A DNA stretch of 64,000 nucleotides from Fidelibacterota bacterium (GTDB lineage Bacteria; Fidelibacterota; Marinisomatia; Marinisomatales; TCS55). The stretch spans positions 1 to 64,000 of the forward strand of contig SCKN01000007.1 of the NCBI GenBank assembly GCA_004124385.1, in the 5' to 3' direction. Position numbers and translations under genes: made by a program. The notes beneath the pieces are model-generated. The model was not told where the DNA came from. It saw only the letters and a program-made list of their open reading frames with translations, and did no database searches. Below are positions 25,938 to 47,626 of the stretch, one piece after another. Position 1 is the stretch's first letter. Each line of letters opens with the position of its first letter.

Positions 25938-26678
25938 CTATTTACTCCCAAACTTTTTTATAACTCCATCGGGTAGAATCTTTAAAAGATTAATCATTAT
26001 TTTCATTTGCCAAGGGAAAACAAATGTCTTCTTGCCTCTGTCAATAGCGTTTGCAATTTTTTCCACAGCCGTTTCCACGGGCATGAGAAAAGGCATGCCT
26101 TTTAATTCAGCAGTCATAGGCGTTTTAATAAACCCGGGGCAGATGGTTGTAACTTGAATATTATATTTTTTGAGAGTGATTCGCCAGCTGTCAGCAATGA
26201 AACGGATATTCACTTTTGCACCAGCATAACCGCCGTGGTACGGGATTCTCATAAATGAAGCAATTGAACTCACATTAACCAGTATACCGCTTTTTTGTTC
26301 TTTCATTTTTGGAATGAATGGCATAAGTGTATTGTTAACACCCATGACATTTGTTTCAATAATATTGTTTATGGCAGTCGCATCTCCACTCATTAAATCA
26401 TCATGACCGCCAATCCCCGCATTGGCGATAACCATATCAATTCCGTCCGTTTGTTGTATAAAATCGTCAGCAGATTCCTTGGCTGCGAGTCGATCTTTCG
26501 CATCCACTTGATATATATACGTTTTGCCGCCATATTCGCGACAAGCTGCAGCCACCGTTTCTAGCTTTTCTTTTCTTCGAGCAGACAGCCCAAGTGTTGC
26601 ACCTTGTTTGGCATAAACATATGCTAAATATTCACCAATACCGCTGCTGGCTCCCGATATAAAAATGCGTTTACTCAT
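25938..26678 (-). CDS. Short-chain dehydrogenase/reductase
   Basis: A 246-residue cytoplasmic NAD(P)-dependent oxidoreductase of the classical SDR type. It has the cofactor motif SGASSGIG near the N-terminus, ANAG at about residues 85-88, the catalytic Ser in NVSSIAS, and YAGAK (YxxxK). The C-terminal part (CPGFIKTPMTAEL, then hydrophobic and basic residues) resembles SDRs acting on lipid-like substrates. It overlaps the upstream PqqB-like gene by 4 bp and is the last gene of the seven-gene minus-strand operon. Confidence 0.9.
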   Translation of the reverse strand: MSKRIFISGASSGIGEYLAYVYAKQGATLGLSARRKEKLETVAAACREYGGKTYIYQVDAKDRLAAKESADDFIQQTDGIDMVIANAGIGGHDDLMSGDATAINNIIETNVMGVNNTLMPFIPKMKEQKSGILVNVSSIASFMRIPYHGGYAGAKVNIRFIADSWRITLKKYNIQVTTICPGFIKTPMTAELKGMPFLMPVETAVEKIANAIDRGKKTFVFPWQMKIMINLLKILPDGVIKKFGSK

Positions 26679-27586
26679 AATTTAAACGTTTGTCCTTCCT
26701 GTGCGATATTGAATCCACGATTAATAATAGTTATTGATGCGTCTGAATTTGAAGTTGATGCAGGATTAGTATGATTCAAATGAATAAAGTGAATCTTATG
26801 TTTTTCGACTGCTGTGCTTGATTTAAATATTTCCATAGTTTCAGTAATAAAGGGGTGGGGAATTTGACTCATATCCCGATTTGGTATTTCTCCATTTGCA
26901 TAAAATGTACCATCCAAAAGAGCAAAGTCAGCAGTCTTTATTTCTTGATGAATATTACGATCCCATTTAGACCACTTATCTATATCGGGGATGAAAATAA
27001 GTGATTTGTTAGGCCCCATTATTTTATACCCTACTGTTTCTGAATATTCATCCCGATGGGGAACTAAAAAAGGAGTAATCGAAATTTCAGATGTTAAATA
27101 TACATTTTCATTATTTTTCAATGTCTGGATTGCAATATTATTGAACTTTACCAACTGATCCCAAGGTCCATTGGTATTAAGAAAATCTTTCATTCTAGGC
27201 ATGGTATATACTGGCATATCCTTAAAACCCATAACCTCATGACCTAGATCCATCAAACCTGTATAATGACCTATATGTGCATGAGTCAGAAATATTCCCT
27301 TCAAGTCGGCATGGTGTTTAGTCGTAATTGTATTCAGTTGTTCCGAAAAGTCTGGCGTTGCATCAATGATCCATGCTTGTTCGGAAATTGGGTCTACGAT
27401 TGCTATGGCTGAAACTTTATGATGTTGATCCGGAGTATCCCACAGGTTTTCGCAGCAATCTTTTTCACATCCGGCATGGGGTTTGCCGCCATCTTGGGCG
27501 GTGCCTAAAACGAGTATGTAAGGATTATCTTTCGCGAAAGAAAAAGCAAAGACTGCCAAAAAGTAAATTATAAATTGCGTCTTCAA
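26675..27586 (-). CDS. PqqB-like metallo-beta-lactamase-fold hydrolase, exported
   Basis: A 303-residue protein with a signal peptide (MKTQFIIYFLAVFAFSFA). VLGTAQDGGKPHAGCEKDCC matches the start of PqqB-type MBL-fold proteins, including a Cys cluster. The metal motif reads THAHIGHYTGL, so the usual Asp of HxHxDH is Gly here. Further metal-ligand candidates are VPHRDEYSETVGY, PDIDKW and HLNHTNP. No other PQQ genes are present, so it is unlikely to serve PQQ synthesis. It probably hydrolyses a periplasmic small molecule. It overlaps the genes on both sides by 4 bp. Confidence 0.8.
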   Translation of the reverse strand: MKTQFIIYFLAVFAFSFAKDNPYILVLGTAQDGGKPHAGCEKDCCENLWDTPDQHHKVSAIAIVDPISEQAWIIDATPDFSEQLNTITTKHHADLKGIFLTHAHIGHYTGLMDLGHEVMGFKDMPVYTMPRMKDFLNTNGPWDQLVKFNNIAIQTLKNNENVYLTSEISITPFLVPHRDEYSETVGYKIMGPNKSLIFIPDIDKWSKWDRNIHQEIKTADFALLDGTFYANGEIPNRDMSQIPHPFITETMEIFKSSTAVEKHKIHFIHLNHTNPASTSNSDASITIINRGFNIAQEGQTFKL

Positions 27587-28680
27587 ATTTTGATGAAAAT
27601 ATTTTTACGGTACATAATATAAAGAATTAACCACCAGACAGCGACATGAGCCAATGCAAATAAAAGTGAACCGTTCATATATCCTGCTATAGGAAAAAAC
27701 CATTGAGAATACAAAAAAGAATATAAGGATTGACCGTCTATTTTAATCCAAAGCATAATGTTGACCCAAAATCCAGACGCAGCAAATACGAAGAGTGAGT
27801 TTGTACCAAAAATTTCAAATGCTTTAAATGGTTTTTTATTTCCCTTAATATCGATGATCCATATAAGTATTGCTAAAATAAGAAATGCGATACCGGCAGT
27901 AACCAATACGTACGAACTGGTCCACAGCTGTTTATTTATTGGCATAATGAAATTCCACAACCACCCAACAAACGTTAAACCAACGCCCATAATTAACATT
28001 TTTTTTACATTATCATTTTGGTCTGACGCAGTATGGATCATAACACCGGCAAAAAATCCCAGTAAAATAGTCATAATAGAAGGCAAAGTGCTTAACAATC
28101 CCTCCGGGTCAAATGGTAAACCATTTCCTTTCCATAAATGACTTTCACCTAAAACAGCTAAATCAAATGCGCGAACAAAATTTGTTTCAAGGGCATAACC
28201 ACCCATCCAAGAAAGTAATTGCCAATATCCCACAAGAGTTGCAATGACAATTATCCACAAATGTTGAATTTTGAATCGAAGAACAAGAACGGCAGCAATG
28301 CCATAGGCAAGAGCAATACGCTGAAGAACTCCCATTATACGTAAGCTTTCCAAATCAGCCCCACGTCGGATTGTTGAAAATAAGTGAATAGCTATACCAA
28401 TTAGAAAAATAATAACAGTTCGCTTTAGAATTTTTATATAAACCTCTTTGGTTCTGCAAAAATCAAATCTGCTGAAAGAAAATACCATGGCGGTACCGAT
28501 TATAAATAAGAAAAACGGAAATACAAGATCAGTGGGAGTGAGACCATGCCATTTTGCATGACGCAAAGGAGCATAAATATATGACCAATTTCCTGGCGTA
28601 TTGACCAAGATCATTAATGCAATAGTCAACCCGCGAAAAACATCTAATGCTATATATCTATTCTGTTCCAGCCTCATCAA
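27583..28680 (-). CDS. Heparan-alpha-glucosaminide N-acetyltransferase-like membrane protein
   Basis: A 365-residue inner-membrane protein with about ten hydrophobic segments. The N-terminal RYIALDVFRGLTIALMILVNTPG and HAKWHGLTPTDLVFPFFLFIIG are the hallmark of the HGSNAT/NagX (DUF5009/DUF1624) family. The human relative acetylates terminal glucosamine across a membrane using acetyl-CoA. The conserved His in the WHG segment is present. Placed between a sodium symporter and amino-sugar genes, it could acetylate or translocate glucosamine-type sugars. This role is inferred. Its start overlaps the symporter end by 23 bp. Confidence 0.85.
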   Translation of the reverse strand: MMRLEQNRYIALDVFRGLTIALMILVNTPGNWSYIYAPLRHAKWHGLTPTDLVFPFFLFIIGTAMVFSFSRFDFCRTKEVYIKILKRTVIIFLIGIAIHLFSTIRRGADLESLRIMGVLQRIALAYGIAAVLVLRFKIQHLWIIVIATLVGYWQLLSWMGGYALETNFVRAFDLAVLGESHLWKGNGLPFDPEGLLSTLPSIMTILLGFFAGVMIHTASDQNDNVKKMLIMGVGLTFVGWLWNFIMPINKQLWTSSYVLVTAGIAFLILAILIWIIDIKGNKKPFKAFEIFGTNSLFVFAASGFWVNIMLWIKIDGQSLYSFLYSQWFFPIAGYMNGSLLFALAHVAVWWLILYIMYRKNIFIKI

Positions 28681-30520
28681 TCAACGCAATATTTTTAAAC
28701 CAAATCCATCCAAATCCAGCTAGTGCCAAAATAGATAACCCCAACCCTGTTTTCCAGTTTCCAAAAATGAAATTTCCAATAGAAAATGTTGCTCCCCAAA
28801 CTAATGCAAGACCACTAATCCAATTGAGGAAAAAGCCTTTCGTAACCGGCTGCATGGTCGTTTCTAGCTGATGAGCAATTGGACCCCACCAGCCACCGGG
28901 TTGAACGCGCTTATAAAATGTTTTCAATGTTTTTTCTGATTCAGGTTTTGTTAAAAATGTTGCTGAAACCCACGCAATAACCGATATTGGAACAATGATA
29001 AGTAATTTATGATGAACTTGAAGTTCAAGCCCGAAGAGTATCGGTGCATTGCCAAACAATGTATATGATTCGCCACTTTGCGATGTTTGAATGGCAGCGA
29101 CTATTTCCAAACCAATTGTAATAACCATTGACGTAAGTAATGCTGTGATTTCTGACCAGGCATTGATACGCCACCAAAACCAGCGAAGAATTAGGACAAG
29201 TCCAATTCCGGCACCCATAGCAAAAATGAATTCCCATGCTTTTGATACACTTTGCATTTTAATGGCAAAAAATGCAGCACAAACCATCATAACAACCGTT
29301 ATAAAACGGCTAACAATTATATAATGTTTTTGCGCGTCTTTTTCTGAAGAGAAATGACTTACCGGTTTAAAAAACCGTTTATAAATATCATTAATTAGGT
29401 AGGAAGTCCCCCAGTTAAGATGAGTATCGATTGTTGACATAAATGCGGCTAAAAATGAGACAACCAATAGCCCTTTCATCCCGGGACCTAATAACATTTT
29501 CATCACAAGAGGATAACCCGCTTTTTCACCTAATGCTGCATATTGTTCAGGAATAATTGGAAATGCAACGATAGACACCATTGCAACAATAATCCAGGGC
29601 CAGACTCTTAAAGCATAATGAGCTAAGTTGAACCATAGCGTTGCCATGAGGGCATGTTTTTCATTTTTAGCTGAAGACATACGCTGAATAATATATCCAC
29701 CGCCATCCGTACTATGAGTTGACCACCACATAACCGTTAAGAAAATAAGAAAGCGTGAAAATGGAGACTCCCAAAATGCAAGCGTGAAAAAGCCAGCATC
29801 TGGAACGGGAGGTATAAATTTTAGAGTATTAGTTGATCCTATTCCATCTCCACTGATTTGTAGAGCATTAATTTTGCTTATAATGACTTCCATCCCGCCA
29901 AATGCTTGAACGGCTATGACAGCTAATGCAATTGATCCAAACATTGCTATAGCAAATTGAACCAGGTCCGTAATGACCACACCCCAAAAACCGGAAAGTA
30001 ATGCATAAATTAATGCCACCGCAACCAATATCCACACAGCAGTCCAACGATCAATATTTAACATGACTGCAACGACAGATGCCATAGCATTAATGACCCA
30101 ACCCATGACAATAAAATTATAAAGAATGCCAAAATATGCTGCTTTAAATCCTCTTAAGATTGCTGCAGGTTTTCCGCTGTAACGGATTTCTAATAATTCA
30201 TTATCGGTTAATACTTTTGCACGTCTCCAAAGTCGAGAAAATAAAAGGACACCAAGTAATCCAGCTAATAATTGATTCCACCAAAACCAATTTTGCCAAA
30301 TTCCGGGTCCGCGAACAAATTCAGTAATTGCCAAAGGAGTATCGGCGGCAAATGTTGTTGCAACCATGGACGTCCCAACAACCCACCATGGTAGTGTACG
30401 CCCAGCCAGAAAATATTCTTCGGTATTCTTTCCTGCACGGCGGGCAAAATAAATTCCAACACCAAGAGAAAATAATATATAGGTAATAATTATTACCCAA
30501 TCAATGGTTGACAAATCCAT
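28658..30520 (-). CDS. Sodium:solute symporter (SLC5/SSS family)
   Basis: A 620-residue inner-membrane protein with about 14-15 hydrophobic segments. It has the SSS signature regions GKNTEEYFLAGRTLPWWVVGTSMVATTFAADTPLAIT and SFLAAFMSTIDTHLNWGTSYLINDIYKRF. The latter holds the Ser/Thr residues of the sodium site in TM8. It is 1 bp from the SpoIID gene and overlaps the HGSNAT-like gene. The likely substrate is a sugar, amino sugar or muropeptide fragment, judged from neighbours only. Confidence 0.9.
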   Translation of the reverse strand: MDLSTIDWVIIITYILFSLGVGIYFARRAGKNTEEYFLAGRTLPWWVVGTSMVATTFAADTPLAITEFVRGPGIWQNWFWWNQLLAGLLGVLLFSRLWRRAKVLTDNELLEIRYSGKPAAILRGFKAAYFGILYNFIVMGWVINAMASVVAVMLNIDRWTAVWILVAVALIYALLSGFWGVVITDLVQFAIAMFGSIALAVIAVQAFGGMEVIISKINALQISGDGIGSTNTLKFIPPVPDAGFFTLAFWESPFSRFLIFLTVMWWSTHSTDGGGYIIQRMSSAKNEKHALMATLWFNLAHYALRVWPWIIVAMVSIVAFPIIPEQYAALGEKAGYPLVMKMLLGPGMKGLLVVSFLAAFMSTIDTHLNWGTSYLINDIYKRFFKPVSHFSSEKDAQKHYIIVSRFITVVMMVCAAFFAIKMQSVSKAWEFIFAMGAGIGLVLILRWFWWRINAWSEITALLTSMVITIGLEIVAAIQTSQSGESYTLFGNAPILFGLELQVHHKLLIIVPISVIAWVSATFLTKPESEKTLKTFYKRVQPGGWWGPIAHQLETTMQPVTKGFFLNWISGLALVWGATFSIGNFIFGNWKTGLGLSILALAGFGWIWFKNIALIDEAGTE

Positions 30521-30521
30521 T

Positions 30522-31766
30522 TTAATACAGCCTTTTTAATTTTGTATGTTTAAAGTAATGAAGCAAAATATCTTCAGTTTTATAATCATTTAATGCCATT
30601 CCCAATGCACCGATTTGACATAACCCAACGCCATGTCCCCAACCTGCCCCCATAAATTTTATATTATCATTTTCCATAATTATCTTGAAACATGAACTGT
30701 ATAAAAAAGATGGATGAAGCAAACGACGAATATCATATTCGTTGGTGATATTTAATGTTTTTAAAGTACCATCAAAAATTTGATAGTCTAAATATACATT
30801 ATTTATTCTTCCTGATTCCCCTCGACTTAAAGCTTCAATTTTTAAAATATTCGTTACATTTTCCTGAATTTTTTCAGAAAAAAATGTACGAAACTCTTTT
30901 TGTGAATATTTTACTGACCATCGAAAATAGTGACCCTCTTTATCCACATTCCCCAAATATGTATGAAGATGTTTTTCGTCAATGAAATGTGGTCCACAAA
31001 AGGCATTTGGTTTCTTATCAAACCATGTATCCCAATTAATGCTTAAATCTGTTTCAGATCCATCAACAATACTGGATAAGTATGGTGTATGAGGCATGTC
31101 CCAAATATTTTCAGCACTTTCTGATATTCCACCACATGATTTTGAATAACGAGCATCGCAAATTTGGTTATCGTATGTAAGAACAATTCCTTTTGTATCA
31201 ATGGACGTTTTTCGAGAAGCATTTGTCATTTGGCTAAATCCTTGATAACGCTGACAGCAATCATCATTGCAGGCATCAAGATTTAAATCTGAATGTTTAT
31301 TTTCTGCTGCAGCTAAAATCCACGATCGGGCAGTAATTGTTTGAGATTCCCGTAAGGCGGGAGGGCAAGCACCACTCATCTCCGATACAGCAACACAGGC
31401 GAGGTATTGTTCCAATGGAACTACATTTGTCAAAAGTAACCATCCGTTATGAGTGGAAATTTCTATATTCCCAGGCAATGTGACATCAATTGTTTTTTCC
31501 CAATGAAATCCACGTCCGGCTGGAACAGTATGGATAGTCATTCCTTGATTATCATCTTCAATAATTTTTGTGATTAACATTTCACTGTCATCAACAGAAA
31601 CATTGAGCATATCAGGCGTTTTGCATGATGGATTTTGACGATCCAAAGTTTCAATTTCATAAAGGGACGGATCTGAAAATGAAATAGTTACAATCTTTTG
31701 TTTGTCAATGGGGAGAATAATACCGATTCGCATTATAGGTTCAGATTGAGGGAGATTGCTTGCCAT
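30522..31766 (-). CDS. SpoIID/LytB-domain protein without a signal peptide
   Basis: A 414-residue protein with the SpoIID domain in its C-terminal two thirds. LEQYLACVAVSEM carries the catalytic Glu region. It also has ALRESQTITARSWIL, a Cys-rich LDACNDDCCQRYQG, YSKSCGGISESAENIW, and the terminal GAGWGHGVGLCQIGALGMA. SpoIID is a peptidoglycan lytic transglycosylase in endospore formers. Neither the ATG at 31766 nor the internal ATG at 31733 (MRIGIILPID) gives a signal peptide or N-terminal membrane anchor, so the protein appears cytoplasmic, unlike typical SpoIID or LytB. It lies between a sugar kinase and a symporter, which suits processing of imported glycan pieces. Confidence 0.85.
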   Translation of the reverse strand: MASNLPQSEPIMRIGIILPIDKQKIVTISFSDPSLYEIETLDRQNPSCKTPDMLNVSVDDSEMLITKIIEDDNQGMTIHTVPAGRGFHWEKTIDVTLPGNIEISTHNGWLLLTNVVPLEQYLACVAVSEMSGACPPALRESQTITARSWILAAAENKHSDLNLDACNDDCCQRYQGFSQMTNASRKTSIDTKGIVLTYDNQICDARYSKSCGGISESAENIWDMPHTPYLSSIVDGSETDLSINWDTWFDKKPNAFCGPHFIDEKHLHTYLGNVDKEGHYFRWSVKYSQKEFRTFFSEKIQENVTNILKIEALSRGESGRINNVYLDYQIFDGTLKTLNITNEYDIRRLLHPSFLYSSCFKIIMENDNIKFMGAGWGHGVGLCQIGALGMALNDYKTEDILLHYFKHTKLKRLY

Positions 31767-31774
31767 TGAATTCT

Positions 31775-32959
31775 TTATTTTAGTGAATATATTAGTAAGG
31801 CATCAATACCTGCACCCAATGCAGGTGCATCGCGAAGTGATGAAATATGAATTATTTCAGGATTTAATTCATCGCCTAACACGTATTTTGTTTTTGCTTT
31901 TGAATCAATTGAATTTGATTTATTAATAAGGTTACCAATGTGGTAAACCAACGGTTCCCAAAAAACACCGTATCCTTTTGAAGCTTCAAGCAGTGTTCCT
32001 AATCGTTGGCCTACTATAATGCGATCTAAAATTATATTGAAATATGGATGGTTTGAAGAAGGGGCCTCCCTATTTGGATTTATGAGTCCAAATCGTCCTT
32101 TCCATCCGGAATATATCGTTTCAATGCGTTCAAATAGTAATTCTGCCAAATTTAAACTGACATCTGAAAATGTTTTTAAAGCAGCCTCTTCTTTCTGGAT
32201 TGCTCTTTCTAAAATAATATCAGAGAAAATGGAATTTGTATTTAAAGATGCAACTGACAGTCCCGAATATTGACTGTAAATAGACTGAATTCCACCGGCT
32301 GAAGCAAAACGCTCCAATGCTACGCCATCCATATTTTTCATTTCCCATGATTTTAACAGCCATGTTTTCGTTTCATCAAATGGTAACAGCTTTCCATTCA
32401 GTTTTAAGGCATCAGCAGCACCAGTTCCACCGCCGAGATAATAAGCATTCTTTACAGATTTGAAGAGTCCTTCTTTAGAATATTCTTCTCCAAAACCACA
32501 ATAATCAGCATCGCTTCCTAATCGACGTATAAGAGAAAAAAGTTTAATCCCAATTTCAGAAAGAGCTTGTTCCAAATCGTCACAAAATGTTGGCATTCTG
32601 GGACCATTTGCCATTGCAGCAATTCCACGTTTGTCATCGGTTTTTAATCCAGGCATTCCTATACCAATTAATAATGGGCTTCCTGAATACAGATTGGAAA
32701 TTGTTTCTACAAATGCTTCGATAAAAGCCTGACCTTGTTGCTTTTCGGCATCTGTTAGTGAAATAAGAGACTTTATTTCATTTAATTGGGTTTGAATATC
32801 CACAGGAGTGAATTCAGAGTCATAAGTTTGGTAATCAGAATATGTTTTTATGGAGTTAGCTGAACCGAGGGAAAATCCATTTTTAGTTTCAATAATATGC
32901 CAACCGGACACTTTAGTTGCTCCGCCATCTAAACCAATAATGAATGGCGCATTGCTCAT
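31775..32959 (-). CDS. BadF/BadG-type sugar kinase (N-acetylglucosamine/MurNAc kinase-like)
   Basis: A 394-residue cytoplasmic protein of the ASKHA fold. It has the phosphate-1 motif IIGLDGGATKVSGW, a central GIGMPGLKTDDKRG and the GGGTGAADALKL glycine-rich segment, with adenosine-type GAGIDALLIYSL at the C-terminus. The BadF/BadG/BcrA group includes N-acetylglucosamine and N-acetylmuramic acid kinases. It overlaps the glycosyltransferase by 4 bp and is followed by SpoIID after 8 bp. An amino-sugar substrate is likely from context but not proven. Confidence 0.82.
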   Translation of the reverse strand: MSNAPFIIGLDGGATKVSGWHIIETKNGFSLGSANSIKTYSDYQTYDSEFTPVDIQTQLNEIKSLISLTDAEKQQGQAFIEAFVETISNLYSGSPLLIGIGMPGLKTDDKRGIAAMANGPRMPTFCDDLEQALSEIGIKLFSLIRRLGSDADYCGFGEEYSKEGLFKSVKNAYYLGGGTGAADALKLNGKLLPFDETKTWLLKSWEMKNMDGVALERFASAGGIQSIYSQYSGLSVASLNTNSIFSDIILERAIQKEEAALKTFSDVSLNLAELLFERIETIYSGWKGRFGLINPNREAPSSNHPYFNIILDRIIVGQRLGTLLEASKGYGVFWEPLVYHIGNLINKSNSIDSKAKTKYVLGDELNPEIIHISSLRDAPALGAGIDALLIYSLK

Positions 32960-34482
32960 GAAGATTTATTTAATGCTTTTCGTCTTTGGATAGCAACAAG
33001 ACGCATATGATCTTTTGCTTCATCATTGCGGTCAATGGTTGATTGATCAATTGAATGATCGGTTCCGCCAGGGTGACGTATAACATCATAAATGGCTGTA
33101 TAAATTCTTCCAATTTTATACTTTTCACTAATGCGCATAACCAACTCATAATCTTCAGCATAGTTTCGACTATAAGGATCATCATTCATTCCAAAATAAC
33201 CGATATTTTTAATCACTTGAATTGCCATGCATCGAGGAGCGCCACCTCCGCCAATACGGAGTAAATTATTTCGTCCATTTTCCTCGGTCCATTCATCGTG
33301 AGTTACAGTCGGAACTTCTTCACTGCGCACGAGCCTGCCATCTTCCTGTTTTTCCCACACGTCATAACTACCGATAACCATCCCAACAGCCGAATCTGAA
33401 TCAAAAACGTTCATGAGTTCTTTTACGGCATTGGGTTTTAGACGATCATCCGAATCTAATTGAACATAAAATTCACTTTGAGCTGCTTTTACACCCGTGT
33501 TCAGACAAAACCCGATATTGTTTATATCCACAACAATTAATCGAACGTCAGGTAAATCTTTATCATATTTATTACCGCCGGCCATATAACGTTTCACTTC
33601 AGGAATTGTTGAATCCATTTCCCCGCCGTTAACTACGACGATAATCTCAATATTCTGTTCTGATTGCTGAAAACAGCTTTCCAAAGCAGTGCCGATGAAC
33701 TCCGGTCGTTCATTGACAGGAATAATAACAGTGGCTTTTAAATGTGGATTATGTTTTGGAGAGGGTCTTTTCTGGTAAAATTTACCAGGAGCAAGATAAG
33801 CGCCAATACGTTTTAAATGATTTGTGCAAATGAGTTCTGCTTCTAATTGACTGTCTTTACTCTTTAATAGATAATCAAATACATTTGCAGATTCTTTTTG
33901 CGCTGTTACTGTATACAGACTACCGCGGTATCTATTGGCAATCCGAATTAATTCGCCCTGTTCAGACAATCGTAATCGTAAATCATATAAAGAATTCAAT
34001 TGAATGGTTTCATCAAATCCACCACATTGTTGGAATGCTGATTTTCTAATGCAAAATACTCGACCATAATCTTGAGTGTCAAGAAGACGCCCTTTATGGT
34101 GATGGAGTAAATGAATTTCCTGTAATTCGCCATCACTTTCCAGATTATAATCTGAATAAATCATGGCAGCATTTGGATTCCGATCCATCGTTAATGTAAA
34201 CAGATCTATGGCAGACGTTGACAAACGGACTTGAGATGTTTGGTTATCAATAAGCAAAATAAACGGATCCTCTGTCTGGCCAATTACTTGATTCATAGCA
34301 TTGGCGCTATGTGTATTTTCAATTGACTGAAATTGAATAGTTGATTCTGCACCGTTAAAGAAATTGCCAAACGCAACAATCTTGCTGGGCTGTAGTGATT
34401 GGGCTAAAATAGAATCAACTGTAGCTTGAATATCAGCATTAGACTGATTCTGTTGGTCAGGTAAGGAGAATAAAACAATCAT
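32956..34482 (-). CDS. Family 2 glycosyltransferase with two GT-A-like domains
   Basis: A 508-residue protein with no membrane segments. The N-terminal 220 residues resemble a degenerate GT-A domain (ATVDSILAQSLQP, then SAMIYSDYNLE-like acidic region). The C-terminal half is a canonical GT2 domain: KATVIIPVNERPEFIGTALESCF, IIVVVNGG, the DxD-type motif QLDSDDRLKPNAV, and an EDYELVMRISEKY segment. It transfers a nucleotide-activated sugar; donor and acceptor are unknown. It is the first gene of the seven-gene minus-strand operon and has an 89-bp divergent gap before the esterase. Confidence 0.85.
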   Translation of the reverse strand: MIVLFSLPDQQNQSNADIQATVDSILAQSLQPSKIVAFGNFFNGAESTIQFQSIENTHSANAMNQVIGQTEDPFILLIDNQTSQVRLSTSAIDLFTLTMDRNPNAAMIYSDYNLESDGELQEIHLLHHHKGRLLDTQDYGRVFCIRKSAFQQCGGFDETIQLNSLYDLRLRLSEQGELIRIANRYRGSLYTVTAQKESANVFDYLLKSKDSQLEAELICTNHLKRIGAYLAPGKFYQKRPSPKHNPHLKATVIIPVNERPEFIGTALESCFQQSEQNIEIIVVVNGGEMDSTIPEVKRYMAGGNKYDKDLPDVRLIVVDINNIGFCLNTGVKAAQSEFYVQLDSDDRLKPNAVKELMNVFDSDSAVGMVIGSYDVWEKQEDGRLVRSEEVPTVTHDEWTEENGRNNLLRIGGGGAPRCMAIQVIKNIGYFGMNDDPYSRNYAEDYELVMRISEKYKIGRIYTAIYDVIRHPGGTDHSIDQSTIDRNDEAKDHMRLVAIQRRKALNKSS

Positions 34483-34571: not shown

Positions 34572-35387
34572 ATGAAAATAAAAATAATCACTTTTATCAT
34601 TTATCTCACGTTTTTAAGCGGACTATTCGGAGCGGTTCAAAAAACGATAATATTCCATAGTGAATCAATGGATAGAGATATTTCATGTATAATTGTATTG
34701 CCGGATAAATACGATAAAACGGATAATCAGTATGCTGTGATTTATTTGCTGCATGGATATAGCGGTAATTATAGAAACTGGTCTGACAAATCTGATTTAG
34801 GAAATTATGCTGATACGTATAACATCATTATTGTGTGTCCAGATGGCGGTTATAATAGTTGGTATTTGGATAGTCCCATGGATTTAAATAGCCAGTACAG
34901 AACGCATGTTGGAAAAGAGGTTGTCCACTATATTGATCAGAATTACAGTACGATTGCACAACGAAATAGCCGTGCGATTACGGGCTTAAGTATGGGCGGA
35001 CATGGCGCATTATACTTGGCATTGGAATTCCCCTCTGTTTTTGGAGCAGCCGGCAGTATGAGTGGTGTTGTAGATTTGAAATTCACAACAACAAAATATG
35101 AATTGGGCGAAAAAATTGGTTCTTTTGAACAGTTCCCAGAGCGGTGGAACCAGTTATCTGTAATTTGCAACGCACATAAATTTAAGGATTCAAACACCAG
35201 TCTTATCATTGATTGCGGTGTAGATGATGTGTTTTTTGAAAGCAATCGAGCCTTACATAAAATATTGTTGGAATTAAATATTCCCCATGATTATTCAGAA
35301 AAACCCGGAGGCCATTATTGGAGATATTGGATAAAAGCTCTCGATTATCAAATAATGTTTTTCATTCAAAGTTTTAAACAAAATTAG
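34572..35387 (+). CDS. Exported esterase of the alpha/beta-hydrolase (esterase D/antigen 85-like) family
   Basis: A 271-residue protein with a signal peptide (MKIKIITFIIYLTFLSGLFG). It has the family pattern YAVIYLLHGYSGNYRNW, the PDGGYNSWYLDSP loop, the nucleophile elbow GLSMGGHGAL, an acid residue in IDCGVDD and a His in PGGHYWRYW. Relatives deacylate sugar acetates, feruloyl or formylglutathione esters. Removing O-acetyl groups from glycans before breakdown by the following GH3 enzyme is a possible role. It opens the plus-strand run 34.5-41.2 kb. Confidence 0.88.
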   Translation: MKIKIITFIIYLTFLSGLFGAVQKTIIFHSESMDRDISCIIVLPDKYDKTDNQYAVIYLLHGYSGNYRNWSDKSDLGNYADTYNIIIVCPDGGYNSWYLDSPMDLNSQYRTHVGKEVVHYIDQNYSTIAQRNSRAITGLSMGGHGALYLALEFPSVFGAAGSMSGVVDLKFTTTKYELGEKIGSFEQFPERWNQLSVICNAHKFKDSNTSLIIDCGVDDVFFESNRALHKILLELNIPHDYSEKPGGHYWRYWIKALDYQIMFFIQSFKQN

Positions 35388-35439: not shown

Positions 35440-38382
35440 ATGCTTCAAAATATGGCATACATAAAAAATTCCGTCAAAATTCTTTTTAATGTTTATTTCG
35501 TTTTAGCATTAATTGGCTGTACAGGCCCAAGTCGGTTGGAGTTAGAGCAATCTTGGGCTGAAAAAACAATAAATAATCTCACCCTAAGGGAAAAGATTGC
35601 CCAAATGATGGTCTTACATATGAATATGCGCTTTTTGAATGAAGAAAACCCCAAGTGGAAGGAAATAACGTCATTGCTGGAATCAGATGGAATCGGAGGC
35701 ATTCATATCTGGTTTGGCGATGTGGGTACATCTCTTACATTGCTCAATGAAATACAACGGCGTTCAAAAATACCGATCATCGTAGATGCAGATATAGAGT
35801 ACGGTGTACAAAGGAGATTTCCCGCCGGAACTGACTTGCCGCCACTCATGGCTATTGCAGCCACAGGAAGCACTCATTTTGCTTACGAAGCCGGTAGAAT
35901 ATCCGCCCTGGAAAGTAGAGCATTGGGAATTCATTGGAATTTTTCACCGGTTACGGATGTGAATAATAATCCTAATAATCCCATTATAAATACGCGCTCT
36001 TTTGGCGAAGATCCGGATGAGGTTGGGAAATTTGCTGTAGAATATATTCGGGGATTACAGGATAATGGTATGCTGGCAACAGCCAAGCATTTTCCAGGCC
36101 ACGGCGATACAGAAACCGATTCACATACGAGTTTAGCAACCATACCAAGTGATTCAGCCAGATTATGGTCTCTGGAGTTAAAACCTTTTCAAATAGCCAT
36201 AAATGCCGGTGTGGATGCAATCATGGTTGCCCATGTCCATTCACCGGATTTCCAACCCAATGCTAATTTGCCAGCCACCTTATCTCCATTTTGGGTAACG
36301 GGAGTTTTGCGTGAAAAAATGGGATTTGATGGTGTCATTGTTACAGATGCCATGGCTATGGGCGGCGTTACGCGAAATTATTCTGATGCGTATGCACTTA
36401 TTCATGCCATAAATGCCGGGTGTGACTTTATTCTGCAGAATTATAATGTGAAAAAATCGATTGATATCGTTGAAGATGCAATTGAAAAAGGAATCATTTC
36501 TGAAGAGCGCATTAATGATGCTGCGTTGAAAATACTGAAGATGAAAGAAAAAGTTGGACTTGATAAACAACCATTTATTTCAATGTCAAATTCGAGAAAA
36601 ATTCTTGGTAAAAATGAATTTAATAAGATTGCAATGGATATTGCGGCTAAATCAATCACATTGGTTAAAAATGAAAATGCCATTCTCCCACTAACATTGG
36701 AAGAAAATGAAGAATTAATCGTTATCGATATTTATGATCATCCTAATAATCATGATGAATCATTAACAACAAAAGGCTTAAAACGTTTTGGGTTAAATAT
36801 CCGATCACTGCAAGTGGATGAATCTGATAGTACGTTATATTATGAATCGATTTTGAAAACAATTCCTGAAAACGCACCTATAATATTGAATTCGTTCGCC
36901 AGTCCATCCGCATGGAAGAATAGAATTTTTCTTCCGGACCATCAAATGGATTTTATTCATGCATTGAATAAAAAATCAAACAATGTATTGCTTATCAGCT
37001 TTGGAAATCCATATTTGATTCAGGGATTACCTGAAACGCCCGGTTATATCTGTGCCTGGAAAGGGAATCAAGTCATGCAAAAAGCAATGGTACAAACACT
37101 TCTTGGAAAAAATCATTTTTCAGGTACGTTGCCCATTACCATTCCAGATATTGCCGAAAGAGGAGACGGGCTGCAATTAGAGCAAGAATTTATCCAATTC
37201 GAACCATCATCATTATCCCCCGGAAAAACAATTAAGCATATTATGCCTTATGAAATAGACGTGGATGTTTCACATGTAAAGTTGTTATTGCAAGAAGCTG
37301 TTTCAGATTCAGCGTGGCCTGGCGGAGTATTAATTGCCGGTAAGGGTGGAAGCATATTTTTGCATGAATCTGCTGGACATCATACCTACGGTTCAAAAAG
37401 GCTTACACGTAAATCTGATATATTTGATTTGGCATCTATCACAAAAGTCATTGCAACGACTTCAGCTGTTATGAAATTGGTTGAAAAAGGACTATTGAAT
37501 TTGGATGAAAAGGTGGTGACGTATCTTCCGGAGTTTAAAGGGAAGCAAGCAACGTATTTTCAGCAGAAAAGTGAAATAACTATAAAGAATTTATTAACGC
37601 ATACTGCAGGTTTACCAAAGCACAGAAATTATTATTTAATAGATGGTTCTGTAAGTACTCGAATAGATAGTGTCTTTAATACAGAGCCTGAATTTGGACT
37701 TGCAGACACAACTGTTTATTCCGATGTTGGACTGATTACTTTAGGAAAAGTGATCGAAAATGTGAGTGGCTTACCTTTAAATAAATTTGCTGATTCACTT
37801 ATATTTAAACCATTGGGAATGAATACAACATTTTACAATCCACCTTCGGAAAAACTTCATAGAATTGTACCAACAGAAATTGCTGAAGGATATAGAACCG
37901 GTTTAATTCATGGAGAAGTCCATGATGAAAATGCCCATAGTTTGGGTGGTTTTGCCGGTCATGCCGGTCTTTTTTCCACAGCAGAAGATTTGGCAGTATT
38001 CTCCCAAATGATGCTGAATAATGGTATCTATGGTTGGAAAAGGATTTTTAGGGAGGAAACGATTGATTTATTTACAACTAGAGCCAATGTAGTGGAGGGA
38101 AGTTCTCGTTGCTTGGGTTGGGACAGCCCATCGGGCAAAGCATCAGGAGGTGTTTATTTGTCAGACAATAGTTTTGGACATACCGGGTATACAGGTACTT
38201 CTTTATGGATTGATTCTGAAAATGATATGTTTGTTATTTTGTTAACAAATGCAGTTCACCCGAATCGTTCATGGAAATCGCCCACGTATTTTGATTGGCG
38301 TCAGCGAATACATTCTGCAGTGTATGAAGCTGTTGGGATAACTGACCAAAATCCCAATTTGGAATGGAGACGTGAGTGGTAA
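35440..38382 (+). CDS. GH3 beta-N-acetylglucosaminidase fused to a serine beta-lactamase-like domain
   Basis: A 980-residue lipoprotein (LALIGC lipobox; an ATG at 35452 is an alternative start). Residues about 40-380 form a NagZ-like GH3 domain with LATAKHFPGHGDTETDSHTSLATI, which holds the His-Asp dyad of N-acetylglucosaminidases, and VIVTDAMAMGGV with the nucleophile Asp. A GH3 C-terminal alpha/beta domain follows. From about residue 610 there is a beta-lactamase/penicillin-binding domain: SITK (SxxK), YSDVG and HTGYTG (KTG equivalent). This fusion is known in Bacteroidetes and relatives and is thought to act on muropeptides. It overlaps the DUF1460 gene by 7 bp. Confidence 0.92.
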   Translation: MLQNMAYIKNSVKILFNVYFVLALIGCTGPSRLELEQSWAEKTINNLTLREKIAQMMVLHMNMRFLNEENPKWKEITSLLESDGIGGIHIWFGDVGTSLTLLNEIQRRSKIPIIVDADIEYGVQRRFPAGTDLPPLMAIAATGSTHFAYEAGRISALESRALGIHWNFSPVTDVNNNPNNPIINTRSFGEDPDEVGKFAVEYIRGLQDNGMLATAKHFPGHGDTETDSHTSLATIPSDSARLWSLELKPFQIAINAGVDAIMVAHVHSPDFQPNANLPATLSPFWVTGVLREKMGFDGVIVTDAMAMGGVTRNYSDAYALIHAINAGCDFILQNYNVKKSIDIVEDAIEKGIISEERINDAALKILKMKEKVGLDKQPFISMSNSRKILGKNEFNKIAMDIAAKSITLVKNENAILPLTLEENEELIVIDIYDHPNNHDESLTTKGLKRFGLNIRSLQVDESDSTLYYESILKTIPENAPIILNSFASPSAWKNRIFLPDHQMDFIHALNKKSNNVLLISFGNPYLIQGLPETPGYICAWKGNQVMQKAMVQTLLGKNHFSGTLPITIPDIAERGDGLQLEQEFIQFEPSSLSPGKTIKHIMPYEIDVDVSHVKLLLQEAVSDSAWPGGVLIAGKGGSIFLHESAGHHTYGSKRLTRKSDIFDLASITKVIATTSAVMKLVEKGLLNLDEKVVTYLPEFKGKQATYFQQKSEITIKNLLTHTAGLPKHRNYYLIDGSVSTRIDSVFNTEPEFGLADTTVYSDVGLITLGKVIENVSGLPLNKFADSLIFKPLGMNTTFYNPPSEKLHRIVPTEIAEGYRTGLIHGEVHDENAHSLGGFAGHAGLFSTAEDLAVFSQMMLNNGIYGWKRIFREETIDLFTTRANVVEGSSRCLGWDSPSGKASGGVYLSDNSFGHTGYTGTSLWIDSENDMFVILLTNAVHPNRSWKSPTYFDWRQRIHSAVYEAVGITDQNPNLEWRREW

Positions 38383-39197
38383 AAATATTTAGACCATTTA
38401 TACTTTATATTTTTCTGATAGTCTCTGGTTATTCAAATTCAAATTCCTGGGTTGAAACTTTACCAAAGCCATGGACCTTAAATGAAGAACAGATATCAGA
38501 GATCCTTCCGCAATTTTATCAGCATTATCCAAATTTTCATGACCGCTTGAAAGCATTTGCCCTTTGGCAGGTGGGCAAACCCTATGAAATTTTTAAACTA
38601 GGCGAAGAAATAGAACCGGATCCTGATCCAATTATCCGTTTGGATGTGTCAGACTGTACAGTCCATGTGCTGACAAGCCTTGCGTTTATACAAGGTAAAT
38701 CCTGGAATGAAGCACGTGAAAATATGATAATGATTCATTACAAAGATCATAAGCCCTCGTATAAAACTCGCTGGCATTATACTTCTGATCGTATTCAGGA
38801 AAACCCTTATACAGCAAATATAACAAATCAACTAGTAGAAGCAGATCAGCTGGAAACTGTTGAAATAACATTAAACCATCAGGCAGACGGAAGTGAATTC
38901 CTAAACTTGGGTTGGGAGAAAAAAACAACGGTAAACTATATCCCAAATGAACATATTAACTATAAATTACTTAAAACATTGTCTGAAGTTTGTGGAGTAG
39001 CATTTGTGAAAAAAGCATGGTTTAAAATGGGATTGATTATCGCCCATGAAGGTATGCTCATTGATCAGAAAAATATCATACATGCATCAGCGGAATATGG
39101 TAAAACGGTGAATGTAAATTTTATGGAATACTATTTCAGGCAGGATGGACCACTGTTTGATGGTATCATGATTTATTCATTTAATCCAATTTATTAA
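38376..39197 (+). CDS. DUF1460 N-acetylmuramoyl-L-alanine amidase-like protein
   Basis: A 273-residue exported protein, start GTG at 38376 overlapping the previous stop. It has an N-terminal hydrophobic signal (FILYIFLIVSGYSNS). The family features are FALWQVGKPYE, the nucleophile region RLDVSDCTVHVLTSLAF, and the late His in DQKNIIHASAEYGKTVNVNF. DUF1460 proteins are NlpC/P60-type cysteine hydrolases that cut the MurNAc to L-Ala link or stem peptides. The coupling to the GH3/beta-lactamase gene supports a role in muropeptide breakdown in the periplasm. Confidence 0.85.
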   Translation: MVKIFRPFILYIFLIVSGYSNSNSWVETLPKPWTLNEEQISEILPQFYQHYPNFHDRLKAFALWQVGKPYEIFKLGEEIEPDPDPIIRLDVSDCTVHVLTSLAFIQGKSWNEARENMIMIHYKDHKPSYKTRWHYTSDRIQENPYTANITNQLVEADQLETVEITLNHQADGSEFLNLGWEKKTTVNYIPNEHINYKLLKTLSEVCGVAFVKKAWFKMGLIIAHEGMLIDQKNIIHASAEYGKTVNVNFMEYYFRQDGPLFDGIMIYSFNPIY

Positions 39198-46337: not shown

Positions 46338-47626
46338 ATGAAATCAAACTTCATTTGCGGAACATTAGAGGGGTTTTATGGTCGACCATGGCGATTGGAC
46401 CAACGATTGCAGCTTTTCGAATGGATGCACGAATGGGATGGTATGAATACATACATGTATGCCCCGAAAGATGATTTATACCATCGAAGTAAGTGGAGAG
46501 AATTATATCCAGATAAAGAATTATCAGTTCTGAAAAATTTAATCCAATCGTGTCATAAGAAAGAATTGGATTTTATTTATGCCATTGCACCGGGTTTGGA
46601 TATTATGTATTACGATGAAAATGATTGGAATTTCCTTGTTAATAAAGTAAACCAACTTCGTGAAATAGGGTGTAAGCAATTTGATATTTTGTTTGATGAT
46701 ATTCCTTCAAAGTTCTCCGATAACGATCAAAATTCATTTTCATCTTTCGCACGTGCACATGCGCATATAACGAATCGACTTTTTAAACACCTATCAGGTT
46801 TATCACTATTATTTTGTCCCACAGTGTATTGCGGCCAAATGGCAGACTATGATGTTAAAGGAAACGCGTACCTCAATGAATTAGGAGAATTACTTCATGA
46901 AGAAATTGGGATATTTTGGACGGGCCCAAAAATTGTTTCTGAAGAAATCACAGTGGAATCCATTAAAGAATTACAGCAGGTAATTAAACGAAAACCCATT
47001 ATTTGGGATAATCTTCATGCTAATGATTATGATATTCGACAAATTTTTCTTGGCCCATACAGTGGTAGATCATTAGAATTAAAAATAAAGTAGCCGGTAT
47101 TTTAAGCAATCCTAATTGCCAGTTTTGGGCGAATTACAACCCATTGCGAACCTTATCCATGTACATTATTGAATCAGAATCATGGAATCCACGACAAGCT
47201 TATTTTGATTCATCTGAAGAATGGATGCAATATTTTGGGAATGATGAATTAACAGTCGATGAAATTCAATTATTGGGTGATTGTTTTTATACGCAGGGTC
47301 AAAAGGGAGAATTAGGGATAAAACTTGTGGAAAGTGTTGAGTGTTTTATGAAAAATAATCCATCCGAATGGGGTTCACATTTACAAAATTTTATAAAACT
47401 TGAGGCAAATTTGAATTCATTATGTAAGAAACTTCTGGCTGTCACAAATAGAGATTTATTGTATGACTTTTATCTGACTATATGGGAGTTAAAAGAAGAA
47501 ACGGAATATGTTTCTAAATGGGTAGAATGGAAGCAATCTGGAAAGGGAGAATTTCAATCACCGGAAATTGTTCCAAGACGGAAGGGAATACTATATGAGT
47601 TTCAAGATATAATACATTCTGATTAG
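46338..47626 (+). pseudogene. GH84 beta-N-acetylglucosaminidase with a frameshift
   Basis: A cytoplasmic (no signal peptide) GH84/O-GlcNAcase-type enzyme that releases terminal GlcNAc. It starts with the hallmark GTLEGFYGRPW (residues 8-18), and the catalytic Asp pair is D120-D121 in FDDIP. The frame breaks at a run of five A (47081-47085). With one extra A it reads LKNKVAGILSNPNCQFWANYNPLRTLSMY and continues to 47626, giving about 430 residues. The conserved SNPN segment is thus on the far side of the break. A lone homopolymer error would restore a normal gene, so this one may be intact in the organism. It follows the symporter pair by 20 bp. Confidence 0.8.

Follow-up and report, generated by a model that had tools for sequence, protein, structure and literature searches.

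The window analysed here, a stretch of 64,000 nucleotides, encodes a SpoIID/LytB-domain protein without a signal peptide (414 aa; 30522..31766, minus strand) that is probably a cytoplasmic member of the SpoIID family acting in peptidoglycan recycling, at C1 of a muramyl sugar before a kinase, with MurQ completing the route. The domain, the catalytic residue and the fold of this protein, the signal-less clade to which it belongs, the conservation of its operon, the fusion of kinase and SpoIID in a relative and the MurQ gene in the genome are established. We found no published account of a cytoplasmic SpoIID in the open-licence literature.

A SpoIID protein with intact catalytic and zinc-site motifs

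The open reading frame starts with ATG, and its product scores above the cut-offs of both domain profiles, TIGR02669 (E 2.5e-46; 158.8 bits against 83.3) and PF08486 (E 6.3e-16; 59.2 bits against 23), and below that of the equivalog for stage II sporulation protein D, TIGR02870 (113.7 against 234.75 bits). The AlphaFold model (pLDDT 88, pTM 0.88) matches Clostridioides difficile SpoIID, 5i1t (E 6.1e-19, TM 0.77 by target length), and a search of the PDB with this model returned just three chains below E 0.001, all of them SpoIID (5i1t and chains A and B of 4rwr). Membership in the SpoIID/LytB domain family thus holds despite the missing export signal, which is not part of the profile definition, and lytic transglycosylase activity is predicted from the domain family.

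The catalytic glutamate, E129 (codon at 31380..31382, minus strand), corresponds in alignment to E101 of the C. difficile protein and is invariant across 28 aligned sequences, in which the GWGHG motif is nearly invariant as well. The protein carries the motifs of the family, namely, the catalytic Glu in xxxEM and GHGxGxxQ, and the C-terminal motif GWGHGVGLCQIGA (30606..30644, minus strand) is complete in sequence and alignment, so that the catalytic region and the end of the protein are intact, as described previously. The catalytic residue and the zinc ligands of C. difficile SpoIID have been examined by mutation (PMC6221140), and its zinc site is already known (PMC6221140, PMC6934232). In the alignment with the full-length C. 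difficile chain, which pairs E129 with E101, the cysteines of the motif DACNDDCCQR (31248..31277, minus strand) fall on this site, with C166, C170 and C171 corresponding to C140, H145 and C146, respectively, and H158 lies near an alignment gap at H134 of C. difficile. Members of the Bacteroidota branch have His in place of C170 (CADDHCQRY), as C. difficile SpoIID itself does, and a swap of this kind fits a metal ligand. Zinc-site ligands of the C. difficile type appear to be present in the window protein, and zinc binding is predicted. The Cys cluster singled out in the preliminary description is therefore real, but it is not a new metal site and not independently notable because it coincides with a zinc site already known from some SpoIID proteins.

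A clade of SpoIID proteins that lack export signals

The export signal of characterised SpoIID members is absent from the window protein. The reading frame is closed by a stop 12 codons before the ATG, and the interval offers no start codon, which eliminates an overlooked upstream start with a signal peptide, and the conserved first strand (SEPIMRIGIILP) starts at residue 8; thus, the original observation that neither a signal peptide nor an anchor precedes the domain stands. A check for signal-bearing homologues gave the same picture: none of the 37 relatives from one search of a genome collection has a signal peptide or hydrophobic leader before the first strand (EPxxxIGxxLPxD), as judged by hydropathy and position relative to this strand, and in some of these, the upstream stop is within a few residues.

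Four genomes (G057, G038, G063 and G041) encode a second, more distant SpoIID match in which the homologous strand is preceded by a clear leader, and leaders are also present in a Bacteroidota paralogue (L077) and in seven further SpoIID proteins. Of the 58 proteins placed in a tree, 46 are unsignalled, and these form one clade (SH-aLRT 99) apart from the 12 signalled ones, all of which carry export signals and some of which share genomes with the unsignalled type. Most members of a set collected later (L088-L097), which was left out of this tree, show leaders by eye. The unsignalled clade spans Neomarinimicrobiota, KSB1, Planctomycetota and Bacteroidota and is marked by the motifs FHW, CxDD[CH]CQRYxG (with undetermined bases in one member, L013) and [RA][YF]SKxCGG, which are absent from the 12 signalled proteins in the tree. 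Compared with the SpoIID lytic transglycosylases of C. difficile (5i1t) and Bacillus anthracis (4rwr), the window protein shares the fold, the catalytic Glu and the GHGVG..Q motif and, with the C. difficile protein, the zinc-site cysteines, but it has no signal peptide or membrane anchor, belongs to its own clade with the FHWxK and RYSKxCGG motifs and is encoded in a recycling operon instead of a sporulation context.

Fusions to cytoplasmic enzymes

We identified two gene fusions that bear on the location of these proteins. In one genome (G090, locus L116), homologues of the neighbouring kinase and of SpoIID are fused in a protein of 851 aa, with 54% and 46% identity to the respective window proteins. 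In another (G598, L117:2335-6132, on a 3.29-Mb contig), GT2, DUF4922 and SpoIID domains are joined in a protein of 1266 aa from the Bacteroidota-type branch, and the gene directly after the fusion encodes AmpG. Neither fusion has a signal peptide or a membrane segment (maximum 19-residue Kyte-Doolittle hydropathy of 1.25 and 1.32, respectively). Each is known from one genome, so a sequencing error retains some probability, the least for L117. The DUF4922 domain between GT2 and SpoIID in the latter is Ap4A-phosphorylase-like and may stand in for the kinase.

The presence of an ATP-using kinase on one chain with SpoIID is the strongest argument from sequence for the cytoplasm. Together, the 37 relatives, the secreted paralogues and the two fusions back the cytoplasmic location suggested at the outset, which for the unsignalled SpoIID proteins appears well supported by these comparisons.

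A conserved operon with a probable role in peptidoglycan recycling

In the window, the operon runs in the order GT2, kinase, SpoIID, sodium symporter, NagX-like, MBL and SDR, all on the minus strand, and the loci of Neomarinimicrobiota keep most of this order. The gaps on either side of SpoIID are as short as initially reported: the kinase gene lies 8 bp away and the symporter gene 1 bp. The kinase (394 aa; 31775..32959), whose homologue is the fusion partner in L116, yields a model that matches 3r8e (E 3.6e-15) and retains the ROK-type GxGTG motif, and its relatives score near the cut-off of the Pfam ROK profile; it is a ROK-like kinase by fold and motif, with a putative sugar substrate. A BadF-type kinase was considered and rejected, there being no PF01869 match in the window genome. 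The GT2-family glycosyltransferase (508 aa; 32956..34482), assigned by profile, has a homologue in the GT2-DUF4922-SpoIID fusion. In many relatives, the gene at its place instead encodes a cytosolic GH3 of the NagZ type, which has the dyad motif HFPG..DTH of NagZ, lacks a signal peptide and shares the operon with a smaller kinase. Across loci L002-L036, GT2 with a large kinase and NagZ-type GH3 with a small kinase alternate upstream of SpoIID, with one mixed case, L003.

The gene after SpoIID encodes a sodium:solute symporter in the window (28658..30520; profile match). Across the loci, it encodes a sodium symporter in 25 and AmpG (TIGR00901) in 6, with an overlap of 4 bp in 4 of the latter. 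In the window, the symporter is followed by a NagX-like transmembrane glucosamine N-acetyltransferase (27583..28680; below the model cut-off, 186 of 480 bits), and NagX also adjoins SpoIID in L118. By profiles and locus comparison, the last two genes, for a PqqB-like MBL-fold hydrolase (26675..27586) and a short-chain dehydrogenase (25938..26678), are kept in the operon; they have no obvious role in recycling. Divergent from the operon, on the plus strand, are the genes for a putative secreted esterase (34572..35387; ORF and profile), for a secreted fusion of a NagZ-like GH3 with a serine beta-lactamase fold (35440..38382; profiles), which is kept beside the operon and which may be a pair of the NagZ-AmiE type, and for an AmiA-like protein of the N-acetylmuramoyl-L-alanine amidase family (38376..39197; PF07313). 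Elsewhere in the window (46338-47626), a GH84-like ORF of 251 aa is followed by an ORF of 160 aa with no family match; these could be parts of a broken gene.

The assignment of the operon to peptidoglycan recycling is well supported by the kinase, the sodium symporter or AmpG, NagX and the NagZ fusion. In early-branching members of the clade, alanine racemase and NamZ are encoded close to SpoIID. The genes that flank SpoIID in most Bacteroidota members, in KSB1 and in Planctomycetota are other than recycling genes, and in several Bacteroidota, the next gene encodes a GT4 glycosyltransferase.

Recycling genes in the genome and the phylum

The window genome (2.09 Mb, 96.8% complete) holds MurQ, two NamZ with leaders and one SLT transglycosylase. 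We found no second SpoIID in this genome, and no match to AnmK (PF03702). Across the phylum, we examined 199 genomes, including incomplete MAGs, with SpoIID scored by profile match (G082, with only a partial, more distant match, was removed) and with counts that ignore phylogeny. Nearly all MurQ-bearing genomes, 152 of 157, have an AnmK or SpoIID match, and 48 of the 157 have SpoIID only, without AnmK. All three, SpoIID, AnmK and MurQ, co-occur in 55 genomes. In the family of the window genome, SpoIID and AnmK are mutually exclusive (24 genomes with SpoIID only, 4 with AnmK only and none with both), but over the 199 genomes of the phylum, there is no anticorrelation between the two (Fisher p 0.15, kinship ignored), so a general replacement of AnmK by SpoIID is rejected. 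Many of the genomes with none of these genes fall in one reduced genus of Neomarinimicrobiota (f2 g8). The listed genomes of this genus, about 0.7-1.0 Mb in size, lack MurQ and, where listed, also a SpoIID match and AnmK, absences that are consistent with the loss of recycling.

Proposed role and reaction

In the proposed route, secreted enzymes (the NagZ-like fusion, the amidase and NamZ) would degrade wall fragments, and the symporter, or AmpG in relatives, would import the resulting sugars. The next step, at C1 of the muramyl sugar, would be that of the SpoIID domain, whose product would go to the adjoining ROK-like kinase, and MurQ, the MurNAc-6-phosphate etherase, would complete the route. 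We infer the direction of this pathway, the substrates of transport and the reaction. A role on imported wall fragments, as put forward in the preliminary description, is well supported by the homologues, the operon context and the fusions; the exact reaction suggested there, in which glycan or anhydro-sugar fragments would be cut after import, is a plausible prediction.

The leading specific idea, which we put forward tentatively, is that SpoIID opens 1,6-anhydroMurNAc ahead of the kinase. It is favoured because it fits both the fusion with the kinase and the lack of AnmK in the window genome; it is weakened by the joint occurrence of SpoIID, AnmK and MurQ in 55 genomes. In a more explicit form, which we regard as possible but distinctly uncertain, SpoIID would run lytic-transglycosylase chemistry hydrolytically on 1,6-anhydroMurNAc and, paired with the ROK kinase to which it is fused or adjacent, constitute a two-domain substitute for AnmK. 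AnmK joins ring opening and phosphorylation, and the kinase-SpoIID fusion could do both; unlike AnmK, the window kinase is ROK-like, the second domain is SpoIID, the AnmK domain is absent and the reaction is predicted. The muramidase activity of the SpoIID protein of Waddlia chondrophila indicates that hydrolysis at C1 of MurNAc is within the chemistry of the family. Like the window protein, this protein, which has both transglycosylase and muramidase activity, is found outside sporulation, but it is predicted to be periplasmic and septal and has a signal peptide (PMC6635528).

The main alternative, which we consider rather doubtful, is that the substrates of SpoIID are MurNAc-GlcNAc disaccharides or short oligosaccharides, which it would cut after their import into the cytoplasm, by lytic transglycosylase or muramidase action and in alternation with NagZ. 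Characterised SpoIID proteins indeed cut between MurNAc and GlcNAc, that of W. chondrophila is a muramidase on denuded glycan (PMC6635528), a cytosolic NagZ-type GH3 is encoded in the operons of many relatives and AmpG in those of others, and AnmK is present alongside SpoIID and MurQ in the same 55 genomes. However, import of oligosaccharides is putative: the NamZ and NagZ-like enzymes of the window genome are secreted, and the adjoining transporter is a sodium symporter, a class to which MurT, a transporter of MurNAc, also belongs.

We consider it improbable that the substrate of the clade is a glycan of the cytoplasm other than peptidoglycan and that its place in the recycling operon of Neomarinimicrobiota is secondary. 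The gene neighbourhoods of KSB1, Planctomycetota and most Bacteroidota members, the GT4 glycosyltransferase next to SpoIID in several Bacteroidota and the GT2 and DUF4922 fusion partners, for which we have no explanation, would be compatible with such a role, but genes for AmpG, ROK-like kinases, NamZ, alanine racemase, NagZ and NagX are repeatedly found next to SpoIID, and L117, from the Bacteroidota-type branch, also adjoins AmpG. Export of the window protein without a recognisable signal, to a site of action at the wall shared with the secreted SpoIID proteins that it resembles in catalytic residue, zinc site and fold, is highly improbable considering that related secreted SpoIID proteins retain signal peptides, that the fused kinase requires ATP and that the window genome has no further SpoIID.

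A parallel to the proposed recycling route is seen in Tannerella forsythia, where gtf, gtf, lytB, ampG and ybbC are co-transcribed with murT, murK and murQ (PMC5388701). Its locus Tanf_08345-08385 likewise combines glycosyltransferase genes, lytB beside ampG, ybbC (of the NamZ type), a sodium symporter and a sugar kinase (PMC5388701, PMC5790795, PMC7670621), with MurQ within the operon rather than elsewhere in the genome as in the window bacterium. AnmK is absent from both genomes; for T. forsythia, this absence is a prediction, and the organism grows on anhMurNAc to a restricted extent, by a metabolic route called unexplored (PMC7670621). The lytB product is annotated as an amidase enhancer precursor, and we found no dedicated study of it in the open-licence literature. 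The parallel is one of gene order, and lytB is a candidate homologue of the window SpoIID. An extended search of the sampled Bacteroidota genomes turned up no member of the Tannerella type.

The proposed cytoplasmic role would place a family of wall-cutting enzymes in the cytoplasm and in peptidoglycan recycling, across several phyla. If the two-domain substitution for AnmK is true, it would explain the use of anhydroMurNAc by bacteria that lack AnmK, in the family of the window genome and possibly in T. forsythia. It provides a testable candidate for how a bacterium with MurQ and without AnmK handles anhydroMurNAc, a question raised previously (PMC7670621).
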